Shown: piece by piece, positions 8,182-16,677 of the stretch
Layout of the letters: every line of letters begins with the position of its first letter
How positions within the stretch are numbered: the stretch's first letter is position 1
DNA from: Candidatus Thorarchaeota archaeon
GTDB taxonomy: Archaea > Asgardarchaeota > Thorarchaeia > Thorarchaeales > Thorarchaeaceae
NCBI GenBank assembly: GCA_029858305.1
Contig: JAOUFI010000014.1
Span: forward strand, 1-40,958
Length of the DNA: 40,958 bases
Direction: 5' to 3'
The notes under the pieces: generated by a model
Databases searched by the model: none
The model's input: only the letters and a program-made list of their open reading frames with translations
Told to the model about the DNA's origin: nothing
Position numbers and translations under genes: made by a program

Positions 8182-9765
8182 ATGCTTGAGAAGAATGTCT
8201 ATGAGTCTTTCAAGAAAATCGTAGGTGATCAATTCATTTCACAAGATCCGGCAGTGATGGACACCTATGCTTTCCAGTGGTGTAATGAGATTGAGAGTGC
8301 ACAACGAGGAGAAGAGCCTCAGAGGTTCGGAGTTCGTCCTCTTGCTGTTCTTCTTCCTGCCTCGTTAGAGGAAGTCCAGGCCATCGTTAGGCTTTGTAAT
8401 GAACATGATGTCACATTCAAAGCTCACACAACAGGCATGGGTCCTTGGGCTGGTGTCAGTAATCTCCGATCTATCCAGATTGATCTTAGAAGGATGAATC
8501 GAATTCTTGAGATTGATGAGAAGAATATGTATGCAGTAATTGAACCATACGTCACGAATGCAGAACTCCAAAGTGAACTCTTCAGGTATGGACTCATGCA
8601 TCATGCACAGGGAGCAGGTCCTCAGACATCTCCGCTAGCTAGTCATACATCTTTTGTAGGACCTGGCTTTACTTCTCCATATACGGGCTTTAGCGGCAGG
8701 AACGTTCTTGGCGTTGAATGGGTTCTTCCCTCAGGTGACATCCTCCGACTTGGCTCCTATGATTATAATGGGAAATGGTTCTCGGGTGATGGTCCAGGCT
8801 TTAGTCTAAGGGGCATCATGAGAGGATGGCTTGGAGCCTATGGTGGTCTTGGCGTGTTCACAAAGGCTGCTATTCGACTCTTCTCTTGGCCAGCTCCGAA
8901 AGACTGGAAATGGAAGACTGGAGGTACAATTCCTAACTATGATTGGGAAGTTCCTCCATACTGGCAGCTATATGTTTTGAACTTTGAAGAATGGGAAGAG
9001 TACCAATCAGCAATGTATGAGTTGAATGATAGAGAGGTTTGTATGGTTGCCACAACATCTGCTCCTGAGGGTCTGGCAGCCTTGTTCACTAATACAAAGA
9101 CAGAGGCAATCGAGGCTATTTTTGCGGGTCTGCTTGCTAGGACAAGAAATTACATTGTCGTTCTAGTAGCAGCGCATACTAGGCGTGAATTCGAGTTTAG
9201 GGCAAAATTGGTGAAACTCATTCTGGAGAAATATGGCGGTAACGATCTCATTGAAGAAGGGGTGATAACTCCAAAACCAATGCATTATGGCGAAACCGTG
9301 CGCAACATGCTAGGTGCACATGCATTCCGCTTCTCCAATTGTTTCCAAAGCACTCACGGCGGAATGGATACTATTTCTATGGCAGTTAGACTTGCTCAAT
9401 TGAATCAGCCAGTGAAACAGAAGTATATCGAAAAAGGTGTAATTGGTGATGATAGAGGACTCGGTGTTTGGATAACGAGTTATGAATCCGGACACATGGC
9501 TCATATGGAGGTACCAACAGTCTACGATCCCACATCAGTGAAATCTTGCTTGGGCTATGCGGAATATCAAGATGAATGCAACAAAATGGACCTTGATCAA
9601 GCACTTGGCATGCCATTCTTCATAGTAGGTGATGAAGTTCACGAATTCTACGCAGAAAGAACTATGCATTATCCTGATTGGTTGAGAAAGATCAAAGCAT
9701 CTTTTGATCCAAAGGGTCTCTCTGATCCAAGTCACTATGTGAAAGGAGTGAAGAAAGATAAATGA
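8182..9765 (+). CDS. Second FAD-linked oxidase (VAO/PCMH type) of the complex
   Basis: A 527-aa protein with the VAO/PCMH fold: FGVRPLAVLLPASLEEVQAI (about 48-67) for FAD-domain entry, IDLRRMNRILEID, AVIEPYVTNAELQ, GFSGRNVLGVEWVLPSG, the GWLGAYGGLGVFTKAAIRL block (about 214-232), a large cap domain, and a C-terminal IKASFDPKGLSDPSHY. It is distinct from the 5468-6913 protein and about 45 residues longer. The classic RGGGT loop is replaced by HTTGMGPWAG, so FAD binding follows a variant pattern. Its ATG directly follows the stop of the CCG protein, and its stop overlaps the next gene by 4 bases. The pairing of two VAO proteins with one CCG protein is reminiscent of glycolate oxidase GlcD-GlcE-GlcF. 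The substrate is unknown; the many aromatic residues in the cap could suit a bulky or aromatic/isoprenoid substrate (inference). Confidence 0.82.
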   Translation: MLEKNVYESFKKIVGDQFISQDPAVMDTYAFQWCNEIESAQRGEEPQRFGVRPLAVLLPASLEEVQAIVRLCNEHDVTFKAHTTGMGPWAGVSNLRSIQIDLRRMNRILEIDEKNMYAVIEPYVTNAELQSELFRYGLMHHAQGAGPQTSPLASHTSFVGPGFTSPYTGFSGRNVLGVEWVLPSGDILRLGSYDYNGKWFSGDGPGFSLRGIMRGWLGAYGGLGVFTKAAIRLFSWPAPKDWKWKTGGTIPNYDWEVPPYWQLYVLNFEEWEEYQSAMYELNDREVCMVATTSAPEGLAALFTNTKTEAIEAIFAGLLARTRNYIVVLVAAHTRREFEFRAKLVKLILEKYGGNDLIEEGVITPKPMHYGETVRNMLGAHAFRFSNCFQSTHGGMDTISMAVRLAQLNQPVKQKYIEKGVIGDDRGLGVWITSYESGHMAHMEVPTVYDPTSVKSCLGYAEYQDECNKMDLDQALGMPFFIVGDEVHEFYAERTMHYPDWLRKIKASFDPKGLSDPSHYVKGVKKDK

Positions 9766-10847
9766 AAGACAATATCAATCCAAACGTAAAAGAAGGGTGG
9801 ACGGGTCCTGGAAGAAGGGATGGGGTGATTCATCCTCTTAGACCTGAAGATGATGCGTTGCACATCGATGTAGGCAAGAAAAACCAATTCGAATGGTGGT
9901 ATTTCGATGCTCATCTCGATGGTGGCTACACTCTTGTTGCATTCTTCTACGCTGCAAATCCTAATCCCGGTTTGAACTCAGGCAAGACTGGCGTTGAGCT
10001 TGTTCTTCTACGTCCGGATGGTCGGAAGACACAGAGGTTCATCAAGTACAAAAAATCAGAATTCTCTGCATCACGTGAAAAAGCTGACGTGAAGATAGGC
10101 AAGAACTATCTCGAGGTTGATTACTCTCAAGGAGACCTTCCTATCTATCGAATTCATCTCGATGAGGAGGAACTTGCTTTTGATTTGACATACAAATCCC
10201 TAGTTGTTGGATGGAAACCTGGAACAGGCTTCTCACACTTTGCAGATCTTGGTTATTTCGCGTGGGTCGTTCCGTTTGCTAAAGCTGATGTGAGCGGTAT
10301 AGTTCGTGATGGCAATAAGACAATAAATGTCACGGGTGTTGGGTATCATGATCATAATTGGCTTAATTTCGCCTTCGCTACAATAATCGAGTACTGGATG
10401 TGGGGCAGGGTATACTCCGAGAATTTCACTCTCTCCTATGCATTCATACAGTGCAATCAGAAAGTTGACCGTCATGTAGTGAAGGTACTAATGCTAGCGA
10501 AAGGAAAAGATGTCATCCTGAGTTCTGGTGAGTTTGATTTCAGACAGGAGAATTTCGAATACAGCAAGGCGGCTGGTCATAGTTTTCCAAGAACAATTAT
10601 CATTACCAATCCAGAAAAAGGTGAAATCAAACTAGATGTTGCTAGAATCCTTGAGGCTGAGAGCATGCTTGCCAACTTCAATATAGCATTAAGATTCATA
10701 GCTAAAAACATACTTAGGATGAAACCCGGTTACTTTAGACTGAATTCAGATTTTGCACTAAGGATAACACATGATGGAAACACCTACACGGAGGTTGGTA
10801 ACACACTTCACGAGATTGTGACATTCAAGCAGTTAGGTCCAAGTTAG
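9762..10847 (+). CDS. CrtC/AttH-type lipocalin-like protein
   Basis: A 361-aa protein without signal peptide or membrane helix. Its landmarks are FEWWYFDAHLDGGYTLVA (residues 43-60), GFSHFADLGYFAWVVPFAKA in the middle, and GYHDHNW (194-200), followed by a segment rich in Trp, Tyr and Phe. These are the marks of the CrtC (hydroxyneurosporene synthase/carotenoid 1,2-hydratase) and AttH two-lipocalin fold. CrtC adds water to a terminal isoprenoid double bond; other members have unknown lipid-related roles. It is the last gene of the PadR operon and is translationally coupled to the second VAO oxidase (ATGA). A hydratase step acting with flavin redox enzymes on an isoprenoid or another hydrophobic alkene fits the context but is inferred. 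The stop lies 9 bases from the convergent longin-like gene. Confidence 0.75.
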   Translation: MKDNINPNVKEGWTGPGRRDGVIHPLRPEDDALHIDVGKKNQFEWWYFDAHLDGGYTLVAFFYAANPNPGLNSGKTGVELVLLRPDGRKTQRFIKYKKSEFSASREKADVKIGKNYLEVDYSQGDLPIYRIHLDEEELAFDLTYKSLVVGWKPGTGFSHFADLGYFAWVVPFAKADVSGIVRDGNKTINVTGVGYHDHNWLNFAFATIIEYWMWGRVYSENFTLSYAFIQCNQKVDRHVVKVLMLAKGKDVILSSGEFDFRQENFEYSKAAGHSFPRTIIITNPEKGEIKLDVARILEAESMLANFNIALRFIAKNILRMKPGYFRLNSDFALRITHDGNTYTEVGNTLHEIVTFKQLGPS

Positions 10848-10856
10848 ATGTAAGTA

Positions 10857-11255
10857 CTATTTCCTCTTTATCGATGTCAATGAATCTATACTTGTTTCAA
10901 CGTCATCAGGTGATAGTATCTCATCTGTGAGTAGTTGTCTCAGGATGCTAAGATGCTGGTCATCAAGCATGTAGTCTTCTGTTTCAAGTACATTTAGTGT
11001 GGCACTATGGTTCCACTCAGCATCTTCATCGTCTATTGTGTGCAAGGTGACTACATGATACGGACCTGCTCGGCCAACCATTAGGCGCATATTACTATAT
11101 GTTACTTCCTTCATTTCACTGCCTACAAATCTCCTGGCATAGGCCTGTATTGCGGCTATGAAAGAGCCAAAGAGATCAGGATCAACTCGAATATTTTCAA
11201 GACCAACTGATGCCTGATATAATCCTCCATCATCAAATACGATCATGCCCTTCAT
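10857..11255 (-). CDS. Longin-like small regulatory-domain protein
   Basis: A protein of about 132 aa. It starts KGMIVFDDGG and continues with FGSFIAAIQAYARRFVGSEM, then MRLMVGRAGPYHVVTLH, then an acidic helical tail. The strand-strand-helix-three-strand pattern, with a conserved start on a short beta strand (IVFDDGG), suits a longin/Roadblock-type profilin-like fold of the kind abundant in Asgard and some other archaea, where such proteins are thought to partner small GTPases. I assign the fold by pattern, not by a diagnostic motif. GTG at 11261 is an in-frame alternative to ATG 11255. It lies 137 bases downstream of the Roadblock gene on the same strand, after the gelsolin-like gene, so the three may be expressed together. 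It is convergent with the CrtC-like gene. Confidence 0.5.
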   Translation of the reverse strand: MKGMIVFDDGGLYQASVGLENIRVDPDLFGSFIAAIQAYARRFVGSEMKEVTYSNMRLMVGRAGPYHVVTLHTIDDEDAEWNHSATLNVLETEDYMLDDQHLSILRQLLTDEILSPDDVETSIDSLTSIKRK

Positions 11256-11392
11256 GCGCACAACACCAATCTTTAGATGATTTTCTTTCTTATGAATCTT
11301 AAAACACTATTAATGCGTGTAATAGGCATTTTGTATAGTATTCTCTATAGAAATTTTGATACACAAAGAGATTTCAACTAATGTGTCATATC

Positions 11393-11779
11393 TTAACCGA
11401 GGAGTGCTCCTACTTCTCTGGCGTATTTTCGCATCTGAGTGACTGCAAGACCCATTGATGTCAAGTCCCGAGCAGAACCCATTAATAGGAATTCCCCTGC
11501 GTGCGAGAGAACCACAAAACCTTGCTTCCCTCGAACTACTACTTCATAGAGTTCATCAAGTCCGAGCTTTCCAGCTGCCATATCTCCTGTCATGAGGAGT
11601 GCAGCACTAACTGCAGCCATGAGATCTGGATCTGCATCCGAATCTTCTGTTGCGAAGTACGCAAGTTTTACGCCTTGCTTACTTACAACTGCGATTGCAT
11701 CTAGGTCTGCGTAGTTCGTGAGCCCCATTAAAAGCTCCACTAATTCCTTTTCCTTTGCTGGGTCTATATGTGATGACAT
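11393..11779 (-). CDS. Roadblock/LC7 domain protein
   Basis: A 128-aa single-domain protein with the typical Roadblock/LC7 order: an N-terminal helix (KEKELVELLMGLTNYADLDA), strands around IAVVSKQGVKLAYFA, a long helix (DPDLMAAVSAALLMTGDMAA), then GLDELYEVVVRGKQGFVVLS and the closing hairpin and helix. In bacteria and archaea such proteins (MglB-like) regulate small Ras-like GTPases; in eukaryotes they belong to dynein, Ragulator and TRAPP complexes. No GTPase gene is in the window. The start ATG at 11779 has AGGGAG 8 bases upstream; a GTG at 11788 overlaps that ribosome binding site and is rejected. It lies 39 bases after the gelsolin-like gene and is probably co-transcribed with it. Confidence 0.82.
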   Translation of the reverse strand: MSSHIDPAKEKELVELLMGLTNYADLDAIAVVSKQGVKLAYFATEDSDADPDLMAAVSAALLMTGDMAAGKLGLDELYEVVVRGKQGFVVLSHAGEFLLMGSARDLTSMGLAVTQMRKYAREVGALLG

Positions 11780-11818
11780 TATTATCACTCCCTAATTGGA
11801 TTAGCATATCATTTGAAA

Positions 11819-12748
11819 TTACTTTGCTACAAGTTTCTTGCCCTTCTTGGTCTTTGAATCAGCTGGTGCTGCGCTACCATCTGTTTCAGATTTGAAGAAG
11901 GTTATCAAATCACTAAGGCGTTCTTTCATTTCCGCCTTTATAGGACTCAGTATTGCATCAGGTGTGCCTTTGAGAAGCTCGATGCCAAGAACTCTCCCAT
12001 CTTTTACGATGACTCTTGGAATAAAGCCTTCTGCCATAAATGTTCCCTCTGGGGGATCTCTGACTTTCTCAATTCGTCTTTCGATTTTTTCCTGACCAAA
12101 GACCGCAATTTTATGCTCTGCAACTGTGTAGAGATCGTTGTAAACAATTACGAGTTCTCTTTGGTACCCTTCTGGTGGGTCAACGGTTTCCAACTCTTTT
12201 AACATCTCAGCAATTTCTCCCTGAGAAACAGGAGTCTTTGGAGTAGTGATTGGAGGTGGGGAAGATGATGCACGGGCAGAAGATGCTGCAGGCTGAGATC
12301 TTGGCGGTAGATCTGTTTCATGCTTAGGTGTCATGGCCTGTTCTCTCCTAGCTATTTCATCAGTGGATCTTGGAGGTGGTGCTGACATAGTTGCGGCCGC
12401 AGGTTCCTTCTTTGGTTTTGGAGGTGCTGGCGGAGGCGCCTTATCTCCAGGTTTCATGATGCGAGTGGCAGCAGTTGTTCCATTCAACGCAGAGAAGAAT
12501 GTTGGCGGCTCCTCGCCCTCATCCAAAGGCCTTACCTTGAAGTGAAATCCATACTCAGTCCTGAGGTTAGTAGCAACTCTAGCTCCAATGAATTTCACTC
12601 TAACACCTGCTTGGCTTCCTTTCCAAAGATAGATACTCTTAGTTTCATCATCTACAACACAAACAACGAGATTTGAATCCAAATCATCCTTTGTGAGTTC
12701 TATCTCATTAAGGGTTCCATCTTCCTGGACCTCATAACCTACAACCAT
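11819..12748 (-). CDS. Gelsolin-like domain protein with proline-rich linker
   Basis: A 309-aa protein in three parts. Residues about 20-90 have VVCVVDDETKSIYLWKGSQ, then a helix FIGARVATNLRTEYG, then RPLDEGEEPPTFFSAL. This matches the gelsolin-like pattern (YLWKG core strand, acidic GxEP..F end), as in actin-severing proteins. Residues about 100-175 are a low-complexity Pro/Ala/Ser linker. Residues about 178-300 form a second mixed alpha/beta domain (RELVIVYNDLY, GFIPRVIVKDGRVLGIELL) that I do not recognise, followed by a lysine-rich tail. Asgard archaea are known to encode gelsolin-family proteins that act on archaeal actin; whether this single-repeat protein binds actin is inference. It is the first of three eukaryote-like genes on this strand. 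No strong Shine-Dalgarno is seen before the ATG at 12748. Confidence 0.6.
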   Translation of the reverse strand: MVVGYEVQEDGTLNEIELTKDDLDSNLVVCVVDDETKSIYLWKGSQAGVRVKFIGARVATNLRTEYGFHFKVRPLDEGEEPPTFFSALNGTTAATRIMKPGDKAPPPAPPKPKKEPAAATMSAPPPRSTDEIARREQAMTPKHETDLPPRSQPAASSARASSSPPPITTPKTPVSQGEIAEMLKELETVDPPEGYQRELVIVYNDLYTVAEHKIAVFGQEKIERRIEKVRDPPEGTFMAEGFIPRVIVKDGRVLGIELLKGTPDAILSPIKAEMKERLSDLITFFKSETDGSAAPADSKTKKGKKLVAK

Positions 12749-12967: not shown

Positions 12968-13999
12968 ATGTTTTGGTTGGATGCGATGCAAGAGCGACCT
13001 GATTCTATCCATATGCTAGCTCGAGGGCTCGATGAAACAGATAGATTGAGTAGGAAACAAATTCTCTTGGGATTATTAGGATCTACCGCTCTGATGATTG
13101 TTTCTACTTGGGGTGTTCTTTCTTTACTGAATTTTGTGCAAGTCTATCCTGTGGATCCAATTAAGATTCTACCATACACGTTATACATGCTTGCTGGTTC
13201 AGTACTTTCCACAGTCATCGCTTTCATTCTGTGCATAGTTGTGATTCGTTGGCCTCGGATTGTTAACATTCCTCTAAGGATACATCGCTATGCGAAAAAA
13301 GGTACAGGTGAGTATTTTCTTAGTCCTGAATTCACAGATCAAACATGGTCAGTTGTCCTTCGGCGGTCACTCTACGGATCGATTCTTGTAGTTGGGATTT
13401 CACTCACAATCCTTGGTTTCGATATGATGGTAGCATCCACTGATTTTCTTCTCATTAGTGGAACATACTTGATGTTCATCAGCATCATTATACTCCCATT
13501 CACTCTTCTTGAATTCTATTATGGGCCTTGGCTTGTGAAAGATTCCGGTTTATATCATCTTGATGAAAGGGACAGGTCGTTGAGTAATGTTGGTGACGAC
13601 CTCGAAGATATTTTGGAATTCTTTGCAGGCATTGATATTCTCTTCATACTTCTTGAGCTCACAATCAGCGTTGGTGGTACTGCTCCTTGGCTTCCAGTCT
13701 TCATAATCCTAATTCCACTCGGTCCGCTCTTCTCCATTGTTCTCAATTTCACACTCGTCTTCATGCTTTTCAAGAATAAAGCTACATCCTCTATGCTCAA
13801 ATTCCTAAATCATGATTGTGAAGTTCCTGATATGGTCTCAACGCCTGATTACATACGCAGTCGTGTTTTGGCATTAATAGATCGCGAGTTACTTGTGAAG
13901 CCATCAATAGAAGAACCTGATGTATTACCTCTTTCAGAAGTGAATGCTTCTGTTCTTATAGAAAATGACATTGAGCTAGTTATTGAGGATGACGACTGA
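12968..13999 (+). CDS. Multi-pass membrane protein, unknown function
   Basis: A 343-aa protein I do not recognise. Hydrophobic segments lie at about residues 31-52, 65-92, 136-155, 162-182 and two around 222-272, with an amphipathic N-terminus (MQERPDSIHMLARGLDE) and a strongly acidic C-terminal tail (ENDIELVIEDDD). No catalytic motif is evident. ATG 12968 is preferred over the GTG at 12953 because GGAG lies 9 bases upstream of it. The spacer 12749-12967, shared with the divergent gelsolin-like gene, contains both promoters and no other gene that I can support. Its last 24 bases overlap, tail to tail, the end of the thiQ gene on the opposite strand. Confidence 0.6.
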   Translation: MFWLDAMQERPDSIHMLARGLDETDRLSRKQILLGLLGSTALMIVSTWGVLSLLNFVQVYPVDPIKILPYTLYMLAGSVLSTVIAFILCIVVIRWPRIVNIPLRIHRYAKKGTGEYFLSPEFTDQTWSVVLRRSLYGSILVVGISLTILGFDMMVASTDFLLISGTYLMFISIIILPFTLLEFYYGPWLVKDSGLYHLDERDRSLSNVGDDLEDILEFFAGIDILFILLELTISVGGTAPWLPVFIILIPLGPLFSIVLNFTLVFMLFKNKATSSMLKFLNHDCEVPDMVSTPDYIRSRVLALIDRELLVKPSIEEPDVLPLSEVNASVLIENDIELVIEDDD

Positions 14000-15037
14000 G
14001 TCCGAGATGAATGAAAAGTATACAGCCCTTTCATCATTTTCTCTCAGTTTTGTTACCAAGGATTCATCATAGGTCAGAGCAATTATTTGTATGCCTTCAA
14101 AATCAATAGTGATCTTGAAAGAACCAACTTGGGGAATTATTGATATCACCTCTCCCCTTGCAGAATTCGAAGTATTTTCGGTAGATATTGTGATATCCTC
14201 TGGTTTGATACTGAGTTTCAATCGATCTCCAAGTTTCATATTTGCCCTGTTTGGAATTTCAACACCGCTGATGTTAATGACAGTTTTTCCCTGTTGACCC
14301 TCCTTGACAACACCTTCCAATACATTCCCACTGCCAAGAAATCTCGCTACAAACTCGTTTGCTGGGCAATCATAGATTTCTTCAGGAGTTCCTACTTGCA
14401 CAACTCTTCCATCTTGAATTATTGCCACACGATCAGATATTGCAAATGCCTCATCTTGGCTATGAGTGACATATATGGTTGTTATGCCAAGTTTCTTCTG
14501 GATTCTCCTGATTTCAGTTTGAAGTCGTTCTCTAAGCTGAGGATCTAATGCAGAGAGTGGTTCATCAAGCAATAATAACTCTGGCTGCTTTGCAAGAGCT
14601 CGGGCAAGAGCTACGCGTTGTGCTTCCCCGCCGCTTATCTCGTTGATTCTCCTCATTAACAATGGTCGAATGTCAAGTAAGTCTGCTAGTTCTTCAACTC
14701 GTGCGACTGTTCTTTCATGCGTCCATTCGGCCATATCTGGTCCGAAGGCGATATTTTGATAGACAGTCATGTTTGGGAAGAGTGCTACTGATTGGAAAAC
14801 CATACCAATATTTCTCTCACGTGTTGGAACTCTAACAACCTCTTCCGAATCAAAGAGTATACTGCCCTGATCCACTTCAATAAATCCCGCTATCATCCTA
14901 AGTGTCGTAGTCTTCCCAGAACCGCTTGGACCAAGAAGCGTTACTAATTCACCATCTTCTATACGAAGATCTATTGGACCGACTCTCGTTCCATCTGCAA
15001 ATACTCTTACAAGTCCTCTAAGTTCAACTGTTGCCAT
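13976..15037 (-). CDS. thiQ: ABC transporter ATPase, thiamine uptake (ThiQ-like)
   Basis: A 353-aa ATPase of the PotA/FbpC type. Walker A is GPSGSGKT (residues 36-43), the Q-loop is in MVFQSVALFPNM, the signature is EISGGEAQRVALARAL, Walker B is LLLLDEP followed by the D-loop SALDP, and the switch His is in VTHSQDEA. A C-terminal TOBE-like beta domain (about 250-353) makes it longer than bacterial ThiQ (about 230 aa), so the protein itself looks more like the iron/polyamine/sulfate branch. Thiamine specificity is inferred from the ThiB-like binding protein and the adjacent thiR. It energises import through ThiP on the cytoplasmic face. Its ATG overlaps the thiP stop by one base (TAATG), which shows coupling. 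The 3' end overlaps the convergent membrane-protein gene by 24 bases. Confidence 0.85.
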   Translation of the reverse strand: MATVELRGLVRVFADGTRVGPIDLRIEDGELVTLLGPSGSGKTTTLRMIAGFIEVDQGSILFDSEEVVRVPTRERNIGMVFQSVALFPNMTVYQNIAFGPDMAEWTHERTVARVEELADLLDIRPLLMRRINEISGGEAQRVALARALAKQPELLLLDEPLSALDPQLRERLQTEIRRIQKKLGITTIYVTHSQDEAFAISDRVAIIQDGRVVQVGTPEEIYDCPANEFVARFLGSGNVLEGVVKEGQQGKTVINISGVEIPNRANMKLGDRLKLSIKPEDITISTENTSNSARGEVISIIPQVGSFKITIDFEGIQIIALTYDESLVTKLRENDERAVYFSFISDSVVILNN

Positions 15038-16677
15038 TAGAGTGCACCTCCAACACTTCCTTCAGAAACTTTATCCATTGCAAGAAAGGCCATTACGCAT
15101 ACTATTACAAGGATTAGAGCAGATGCTCCTGCTTCAACAAATTTTCTTACACCTAGATTGTCATATATCGCAACAGCAAGTGTGAAATTTTGAGGAAGGG
15201 CAATAAACAAGGTAGCTGACATCTCTCCTATTGCCATTGCAAATGCGAAAACTGCTCCAACGAGTATACCTGGAGCCAACAATGGCAATTCAACGAAAAA
15301 AAGCCTCTGAAGACTTGAAGCACCTAAAGAGTCTGATTGATCGATGAGATGAGAATCAATACTTCTTAGTGAAATTTCAATCGATCTAGTTGTAAATGGA
15401 AGACCTATGATAGTCTGCGCTAGCACAATAATTGGCCACGGATTAATATTGAGGCCTGTAGGAACTGCGATTGCTGTCATTAGACCATAAGCAATCGTGA
15501 TGGATGAGACACCAAGCGGTAGCAAAACCATCATTGATGCAAGAGAAGGAAGTATCTGCGTCTTTGATCTATGTGCATATGCCAAAGGAATTCCTAGTCC
15601 GACAGACAATAGAGTCGCAAGTCCGCTGTAAAAGAGAGAATTAACGAGTGGTCTGAATCCTCCTCCTGCATCAGTGTTGAATAGATAGAGGAAACCATCA
15701 AGGGTGTACATTTTAGATATGGGATCAAAAAACGCGGCTCTGATTATTGATGCAATGGGTCCTGCAACAAGGAATAGCATGAGTATGAAATAGAGAATAA
15801 TAAGGAAAATTTCTGACGACTTGTAACTACGAAGGGTCGTGGTCTTTATCGAAGAAGTAGGACTGGATCGCTCTCCCTCATTTCGTCCCAAACGGACATA
15901 TGTGAGAGCCAATGTAAGTGTGAAGAGGATCTGAACTATGACCAAGGAGCTTGCCTGTCCATAGTCTGCCCATCTGAATGCATTCCAGATCTGAACCTCA
16001 ATGGTTCTATAGGACCCGTGTCCAAAGGCAAGGACAATTGGAAATGACATGAAACAGAAGAGAAATGTAAGAATTGCTGATGCAATCAAGGATGGCATGA
16101 TGTGAGGGAGTGTGATGCGTCTGAAACGCTGCTTTGCGTCCGCTCCAAGCAAATCTGCTGCCTCTTCGATTTCTGGATTTATTCTCTCCATTGAAGCAGA
16201 AACAAGAAGAATGACAAGTGGTGCATTATAGAAAGTATGTGCAAGTATGATTCCCGGAATATCAGTTGCTAAATTGAGAACTGAATCTGATGACTGAAGA
16301 ATCCACATAAGTGCAGAATCGACTATACCATATTGACCAAACATCTGTAGAAAACCGACTACCACAACAATGGGTGGTAAAACAAAGGGGATGATAATTA
16401 GTGCACGAACTAGATTCTTCCCTGAAAATTTTAATCGCGCCAACAGAATAGCTCCGGGAAGGCCAATAATAAGTGCCAGGATAGTGCTTAAGACTGCTTG
16501 AAGAATTGTGAATTCTATATATGACCAGTTGTACGCGATGGACTCTGCGAATGGCATTCCAGTTTCAGATAGTAATCCCAGAACGGTCACTCTGATTACC
16601 GGATAGATGAGGAATGTTCCAAGTATGATTAGTGGTGTCGCTTGCGCAATGATGTTTACCTTATTGTATCCTGCCAC
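15037..16677 (-). CDS. thiP: ABC transporter permease, fused two-domain, thiamine uptake (ThiP-like)
   Basis: A 546-aa protein with about 12 membrane helices in two homologous halves, the arrangement of ThiP/FbpB permeases. Each half carries an EAA-type coupling loop: EEAADLLGADAKQRFRRITL (residues about 187-206) and DQSDSLGASSLQRLFFVELP in the second half, the latter losing the EAA letters but keeping the shape. A hydrophilic loop with a serine cluster joins the halves. It would form the complete membrane channel with a ThiQ dimer. Gene order binding protein-permease-ATPase with 12-base and minus-1-base spacing marks one operon. Substrate assignment follows the operon partners and not the permease itself; iron or phosphonate importers have the same fold. 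Confidence 0.85.
   Translation of the reverse strand: MAGYNKVNIIAQATPLIILGTFLIYPVIRVTVLGLLSETGMPFAESIAYNWSYIEFTILQAVLSTILALIIGLPGAILLARLKFSGKNLVRALIIIPFVLPPIVVVVGFLQMFGQYGIVDSALMWILQSSDSVLNLATDIPGIILAHTFYNAPLVILLVSASMERINPEIEEAADLLGADAKQRFRRITLPHIMPSLIASAILTFLFCFMSFPIVLAFGHGSYRTIEVQIWNAFRWADYGQASSLVIVQILFTLTLALTYVRLGRNEGERSSPTSSIKTTTLRSYKSSEIFLIILYFILMLFLVAGPIASIIRAAFFDPISKMYTLDGFLYLFNTDAGGGFRPLVNSLFYSGLATLLSVGLGIPLAYAHRSKTQILPSLASMMVLLPLGVSSITIAYGLMTAIAVPTGLNINPWPIIVLAQTIIGLPFTTRSIEISLRSIDSHLIDQSDSLGASSLQRLFFVELPLLAPGILVGAVFAFAMAIGEMSATLFIALPQNFTLAVAIYDNLGVRKFVEAGASALILVIVCVMAFLAMDKVSEGSVGGAL

Follow-up and report, generated by a model that had tools for sequence, protein, structure and literature searches.

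A gelsolin-domain protein and a Roadblock protein encoded by a conserved gene pair in Asgard archaea

The conserved unit described here is a pair of genes, not three, and it occurs in 14 Asgard families: one gene encodes a protein with a single gelsolin domain, a linker, and a C-terminal domain that we call X (gelsolin-X), and the other encodes a Roadblock/LC7 protein. The pair lies in a 40,958-nucleotide stretch of a Candidatus Thorarchaeota archaeon contig (JAOUFI010000014.1; hereafter the window), which belongs to a genome of 3.04 Mb in 205 contigs. With a probability of about 0.5, we read the pair as an old pan-Asgard module in which a gelsolin domain that lacks the calcium glutamate is coupled via the linker and X to a Roadblock dimer, and which may link actin to small-GTPase scaffolds. 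That the two proteins are functionally linked is very probable; that they would also form a physical complex is likely.

Gene layout and domains of the window locus

Three genes lie on the minus strand in the reading order gelsolin-X, Roadblock, and longin-like. An earlier note on this DNA had placed three small proteins with gelsolin-like, Roadblock/LC7, and longin-like folds on one strand and had pointed to an unrecognised, conserved-looking C-terminal domain behind a Pro-rich linker; all three frames are present, and the folds and the domain were borne out by the searches given below. Gelsolin-X (309 aa) spans positions 11819-12748, and 39 bp separate its stop codon from the ATG of the Roadblock gene. 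The Roadblock frame is open from a GTG at 11788 (11393-11788), and we favour ATG 11779 as its start (11393-11779, minus strand, 128 aa), because this start is conserved and is preceded by the Shine-Dalgarno-like GGGAGTGAT (11784-11792, minus strand; direct sequence reading). Upstream of the pair are an ABC transporter ATPase and a double-length permease (13976-16677, minus strand), which are kept beside it in Thorarchaeia only. On the other side, a CrtC/lipocalin-like frame (9762-10847, plus strand; PF07143, slightly over the cut-off) comes after a 423-aa probable iron-sulfur protein and overlaps the end of a 527-aa probable FAD-linked oxidase, the latter two judged by eye.

The gelsolin-homology domain occupies residues ~5-92 of gelsolin-X (12473-12736, minus strand). 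The single-sequence Pfam scan of the 309-aa protein is sub-threshold for gelsolin, and 28 of the 46 members of its family match PF00626 at E ≤ 0.1. The profile of these 46 members, searched against the PDB, finds the Asgard gelsolins 7whg (3.4e-19), 7c2f (1e-18), which is probably the Thorarchaeal ProGel, and 7c2h, and the villins and gelsolins rank next (vertebrate gelsolin, 1e-9 to 1e-10); this significant similarity to solved gelsolin domains places the domain in the gelsolin superfamily. Gly44, Lys52, Phe53, and Phe84 are invariant among the 46 members, and the Lys52-Phe53 pair is located in a long helix that is well conserved on direct alignment with the matching segment of 7c2f. The type-II calcium site, which consists of a strand Asp and a helix Glu, is not conserved in the family. 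Position 27, at which 7whg has Asp, is Glu in 15 members, Arg in 10, Asp in 7, and Lys in 5, and position 51, at which 7whg has Glu, is Lys in 25, Arg in 10, and Ser in 6 (i.e., Lys or Arg in 35 of 46). Since 7c2f carries Lys at both positions and has lost the site too, this does not disqualify gelsolin-X from the fold family. The window genome encodes one actin, plus other gelsolins.

Residues 93-177 form a Pro-rich, low-complexity linker (12218-12472, minus strand), delimited by the family alignment like the X domain that follows it at residues ~178-290 (11879-12217, minus strand). In most families the linker is rich in Pro, with medians of 74.5 aa in length and 19% Pro; a PPP motif is present in 14 of the 46 gelsolin-X members. 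In the family alignment, X has the core GYxREL...PEGxFxAExYxPRVxxExGxVxAIEFLK, in which four residues (Arg, Gly, Arg, and Glu) are invariant, and searches of Pfam, NCBIfam, and the PDB with sequences and profiles turned up nothing convincing. With its own profile, X is detected in 199 of 228 Asgard genomes (43 of the 45 good ones; 57 of 62 genera), nearly always behind a gelsolin domain and nearly always in open frames of 260-340 codons; we define X here as a widely distributed Asgard domain that has no known relatives. An AlphaFold2 model built from 30 close sequences, Thorarchaeial only, shows a helix, about five strands, and a C-terminal helix (mean pLDDT, 75.7). We do not rely on this model, because the five models disagree (pLDDT 41 to 76) and Foldseek, given a predicted model that is itself unsure, finds no match better than E = 0.18.

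Two assignments of X were tried and rejected. A comparison of X with the Roadblock profile by hhalign gave a probability of 0.9% for a Roadblock-like fold. For a family 4 encapsulin, the best match of X to NF041190 has an E value of 0.00031 and 21.1 bits against a cut-off of 90, the similarity covers half of the profile in 3 of 35 members, which are close relatives, and PF08967 fails to find X in 13 genomes. The X domains with weak local likeness to family 4A encapsulins are all from family f2 (L084:5489-5830, L083:5574-5909, and L092:5025-5357). A long gelsolin-X relative is also found in f2 (L106:4729-5904, minus strand); it is most probably the one member of the family alignment with SAP/HeH/Ish1-like matches (E down to 1.5e-10). 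In f27, the gene for a stand-alone X protein of 85-87 aa (L216:2357-2611, minus strand; L217:2149-2409, plus strand) immediately follows another, shorter gelsolin-X gene, which means that X can exist as a separate protein. Gelsolin-X of the window ends in a basic tail (11819-11878, minus strand, with the stop codon), which sequence comparison shows to be conserved in Thorarchaeia only; its terminal peptide (11822-11842, minus strand), with KKLVAK or a near variant at the end, is present in all intact-ended Thorarchaeial gelsolin-X proteins inspected and not elsewhere.

The second protein matches Robl_LC7 (PF03259) with an E value of 3.6e-11 and 43.1 bits, well above the curated cut-off of 23, and is one of nine Roadblock matches in the 3.04-Mb genome. 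Its assignment is further supported by the alignment and by its place in an ortholog clade (see below). Among the linked Roadblocks, those of f26 and f27 score lower (94-103 bits), carry extensions, and are putative orthologs. No gelsolin-Roadblock fusion was found, as the long Roadblock frames hold no gelsolin or X domain. Two Roadblocks of f11 (L135:1177-1869 and L136:1501-2205; 231-235 aa) have a long Pro-rich C-terminal tail, read in L135, that recalls the gelsolin-X linker.

Conservation of the gene pair among Asgard families

Of 99 relatives searched for gelsolin-X, 95 gave a match, which in some cases covers the gelsolin domain alone. In Thorarchaeia, the Roadblock gene is directly downstream of gelsolin-X at every locus with intact sequence. 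The two genes are also adjacent in f2, f3, f7, f9, f12, f15, f18, f20, f21, f24, f26, f27, and f28, which together with f1 makes 14 families. The earlier note had named conservation of the gene order in other Asgard genomes as a check; the check strongly favours gelsolin-X and Roadblock and fails for the longin-like gene, which adjoins the pair only within the genus of the window. The pair is usually co-directional, with an intergenic gap of 5 bp in f3 and f12, 15 bp in f7, up to 230 bp in f2, and 580-940 bp in f26 and f27. Many genomes have several gelsolin-X paralogs and one linked Roadblock. With nine Roadblock matches in a 3-Mb genome, adjacency by chance is expected at less than 1% per family.

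In the Roadblock tree, all sampled linked Roadblocks (f1-f3, f7, f9, f12, f15, and f18) fall in one clade with support of 100/99, which also takes in orthologs from f5, f10, f13, and f17. The Roadblocks of f4 and f11 and other paralogs fall outside this clade, and the unlinked duplicates of f2 and f18 arose inside it. In the gelsolin-X tree, the linked rows cluster (6 changes against 15.3 in shuffles), and groups of unlinked paralogs are seen in f9 and f13. Both trees were built without the pairs of f20, f21, f24, and f26-f28.

Adjacency is lost in f4, f5, f11, f13, f16, f22, f25, and f29, no ortholog-grade Roadblock was found in f4 or f11, and the two genes are ~5.7 kb apart in f17. In one Thorarchaeial genome assembled as a single contig (G036/L065, f1), X and Roadblock seemed to have been lost together; this exception was rejected, as it traces to an assembly gap, a stretch of N in the scaffold. 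A few further genomes of f1 have neither X nor an ortholog-grade Roadblock, a joint absence that would be expected if a single gap took out both. In f3, gelsolin-X is clear in a genome of 1.418 Mb on a single contig. If this genome is that of Odin LCB_4, a survey in which no gelsolin was reported for that organism (PMC8813620) would need revising.

The flanking genes mostly differ among families: Thorarchaeia have the ABC-transporter operon, and other families have different neighbours; a ~520-aa gene upstream of the pair is common to f2, f3, and f18. Because the two genes are adjacent in 14 families while nearly all neighbours change, their products probably work together. It is also conceivable, and in our view unlikely, that the genes stay linked to allow co-expression or balanced dosage and that their products work separately, gelsolin-X acting on actin and the Roadblock dimer on a GTPase whose gene lies elsewhere. 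The unlinked genes of several families fit that explanation, as do the convergent pairs of two f18 genera, one f27 genome, and one f15 genome, which are still adjacent after inversion and are thus not in one transcript; however, it is interacting partners that more typically stay adjacent through inversion and a change of neighbours.

A putative two-protein module

In the module that we propose, the gelsolin domain, which resembles 7c2f and has basic residues in place of the calcium-coordinating helix glutamate, would bind actin independently of calcium through the long helix with its invariant Lys-Phe pair. The flexible, Pro-rich linker joins this domain to X, and X, the linker, or both may dock on the second protein, a long-type Roadblock that is expected to form a homodimer. 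Asgard Roadblock homodimers have been solved, and Thor-RB was proposed as a possible protein-protein scaffold (Tran 2024, PMC10933270). A single scaffold would thereby hold two actin-binding arms, and it may also contact a small GTPase or a membrane complex encoded elsewhere. That the pair couples actin to GTPase signalling is a reasonable extension that we put forward tentatively. No GTPase gene is part of the conserved unit, and the GTPase-linked cytoskeletal function that the earlier note proposed for the cluster is putative. This lack counts against the module, as do the families in which adjacency is lost and the genomes with several gelsolin-X paralogs and one linked Roadblock. We consider it doubtful that the full extension holds, i.e., that X is a new Roadblock-docking domain, that the pair is an ancestral, pre-eukaryotic Asgard scaffold from actin to GTPases, and that its gelsolin-type activity is set by the Roadblock dimer and not by calcium.

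The gelsolin domain might instead be a structural module, as in eukaryotic Sec23/Sec24, and the pair a GTPase or membrane scaffold with no role in actin regulation. This is somewhat less probable again than separate action of the two proteins. It would account for the divergence from canonical gelsolins (the sub-threshold single-sequence Pfam score), for calcium positions that have been lost, and for a partner that belongs to the fold class of GTPase regulators; against it, 7c2f is the closest solved single-domain relative, the long helix is well conserved, and single-domain ProGel is reported to act on actin (PMC9433394).

The third gene encodes a longin-fold protein of 132 aa (10857-11255, minus strand; frame 10857-11261, start likely at ATG 11255). 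It has no Pfam match and no PDB sequence match. Its AlphaFold2 model, of modest confidence (pLDDT 65, pTM 0.63), has the order beta-beta-alpha-beta-beta-beta-alpha-alpha, and Foldseek matches it to AP-2 sigma, zeta-COP, Roadblock, and Mon1-Ccz1 longins (best E = 1.4e-4, TM 0.64), so that element order and structural match agree with a longin on this modest model. Of the 15 other genomes of the genus, 13 have a close homologue, which in 10 of them lies on the same contig beside the pair, and relatives occur elsewhere in Thorarchaeia and weakly beyond, away from the pair locus. Despite this fold and this local linkage, a three-gene gelsolin, Roadblock, and longin system is highly improbable and is contradicted as a general rule, given the 137-bp gap between the Roadblock end and ATG 11255 in the window and the displacement or absence of the longin gene outside the genus; the gene is best treated as a lineage-specific neighbour.

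Asgard archaea have eukaryote-like actin regulators and many GTPase regulators. The two-gene module, as a phylum-wide gene pair, supplies a direct partner candidate for one Roadblock, and this partner is a cytoskeletal-type protein; if the reading is true, two eukaryotic-signature systems were linked before eukaryotes.

Comparison with known gelsolins and Roadblock proteins

The one-domain gelsolins of Asgard archaea are known as a count: 1DGelX proteins were counted in Lokiarchaeota, and MK-D1 is said to have two (PMC9433394). The name denotes one gelsolin domain plus something else, as in gelsolin-X, and the published class carries no domain definition, partner, or function; from the name and the architecture, we infer that gelsolin-X belongs to 1DGelX. 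By description alone, it also resembles cls.008013 (Lokiarch_14920), an Asgard-specific, divergent gelsolin-related protein present in 7 of 8 genomes (Makarova 2019, PMC6393860). The pairing with Roadblock was not found reported in the open-licence literature, and subscription papers may say more. Among solved structures, the Asgard single-domain gelsolin 7c2f is the best single-domain match, with basic residues at the calcium positions and a similar long helix; in contrast to gelsolin-X, it has 94 aa and neither linker nor X. The multi-domain gelsolins (2DGel 7whg, gelsolin, and villin) have the fold family and the WxG motif in common with gelsolin-X, whereas gelsolin-X has a single gelsolin domain, with no second one, in which the calcium ligands are not conserved. 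Like Thor-RB/MKD1-RB (PMC10933270), MglB, and LAMTOR, the window Roadblock matches Robl_LC7 and is of the long type with terminal helices. Its clade is distinct from those Roadblocks, with only 33 bits to 7f8m and 9jue, and its gene is paired with that of a gelsolin, not of a GTPase.
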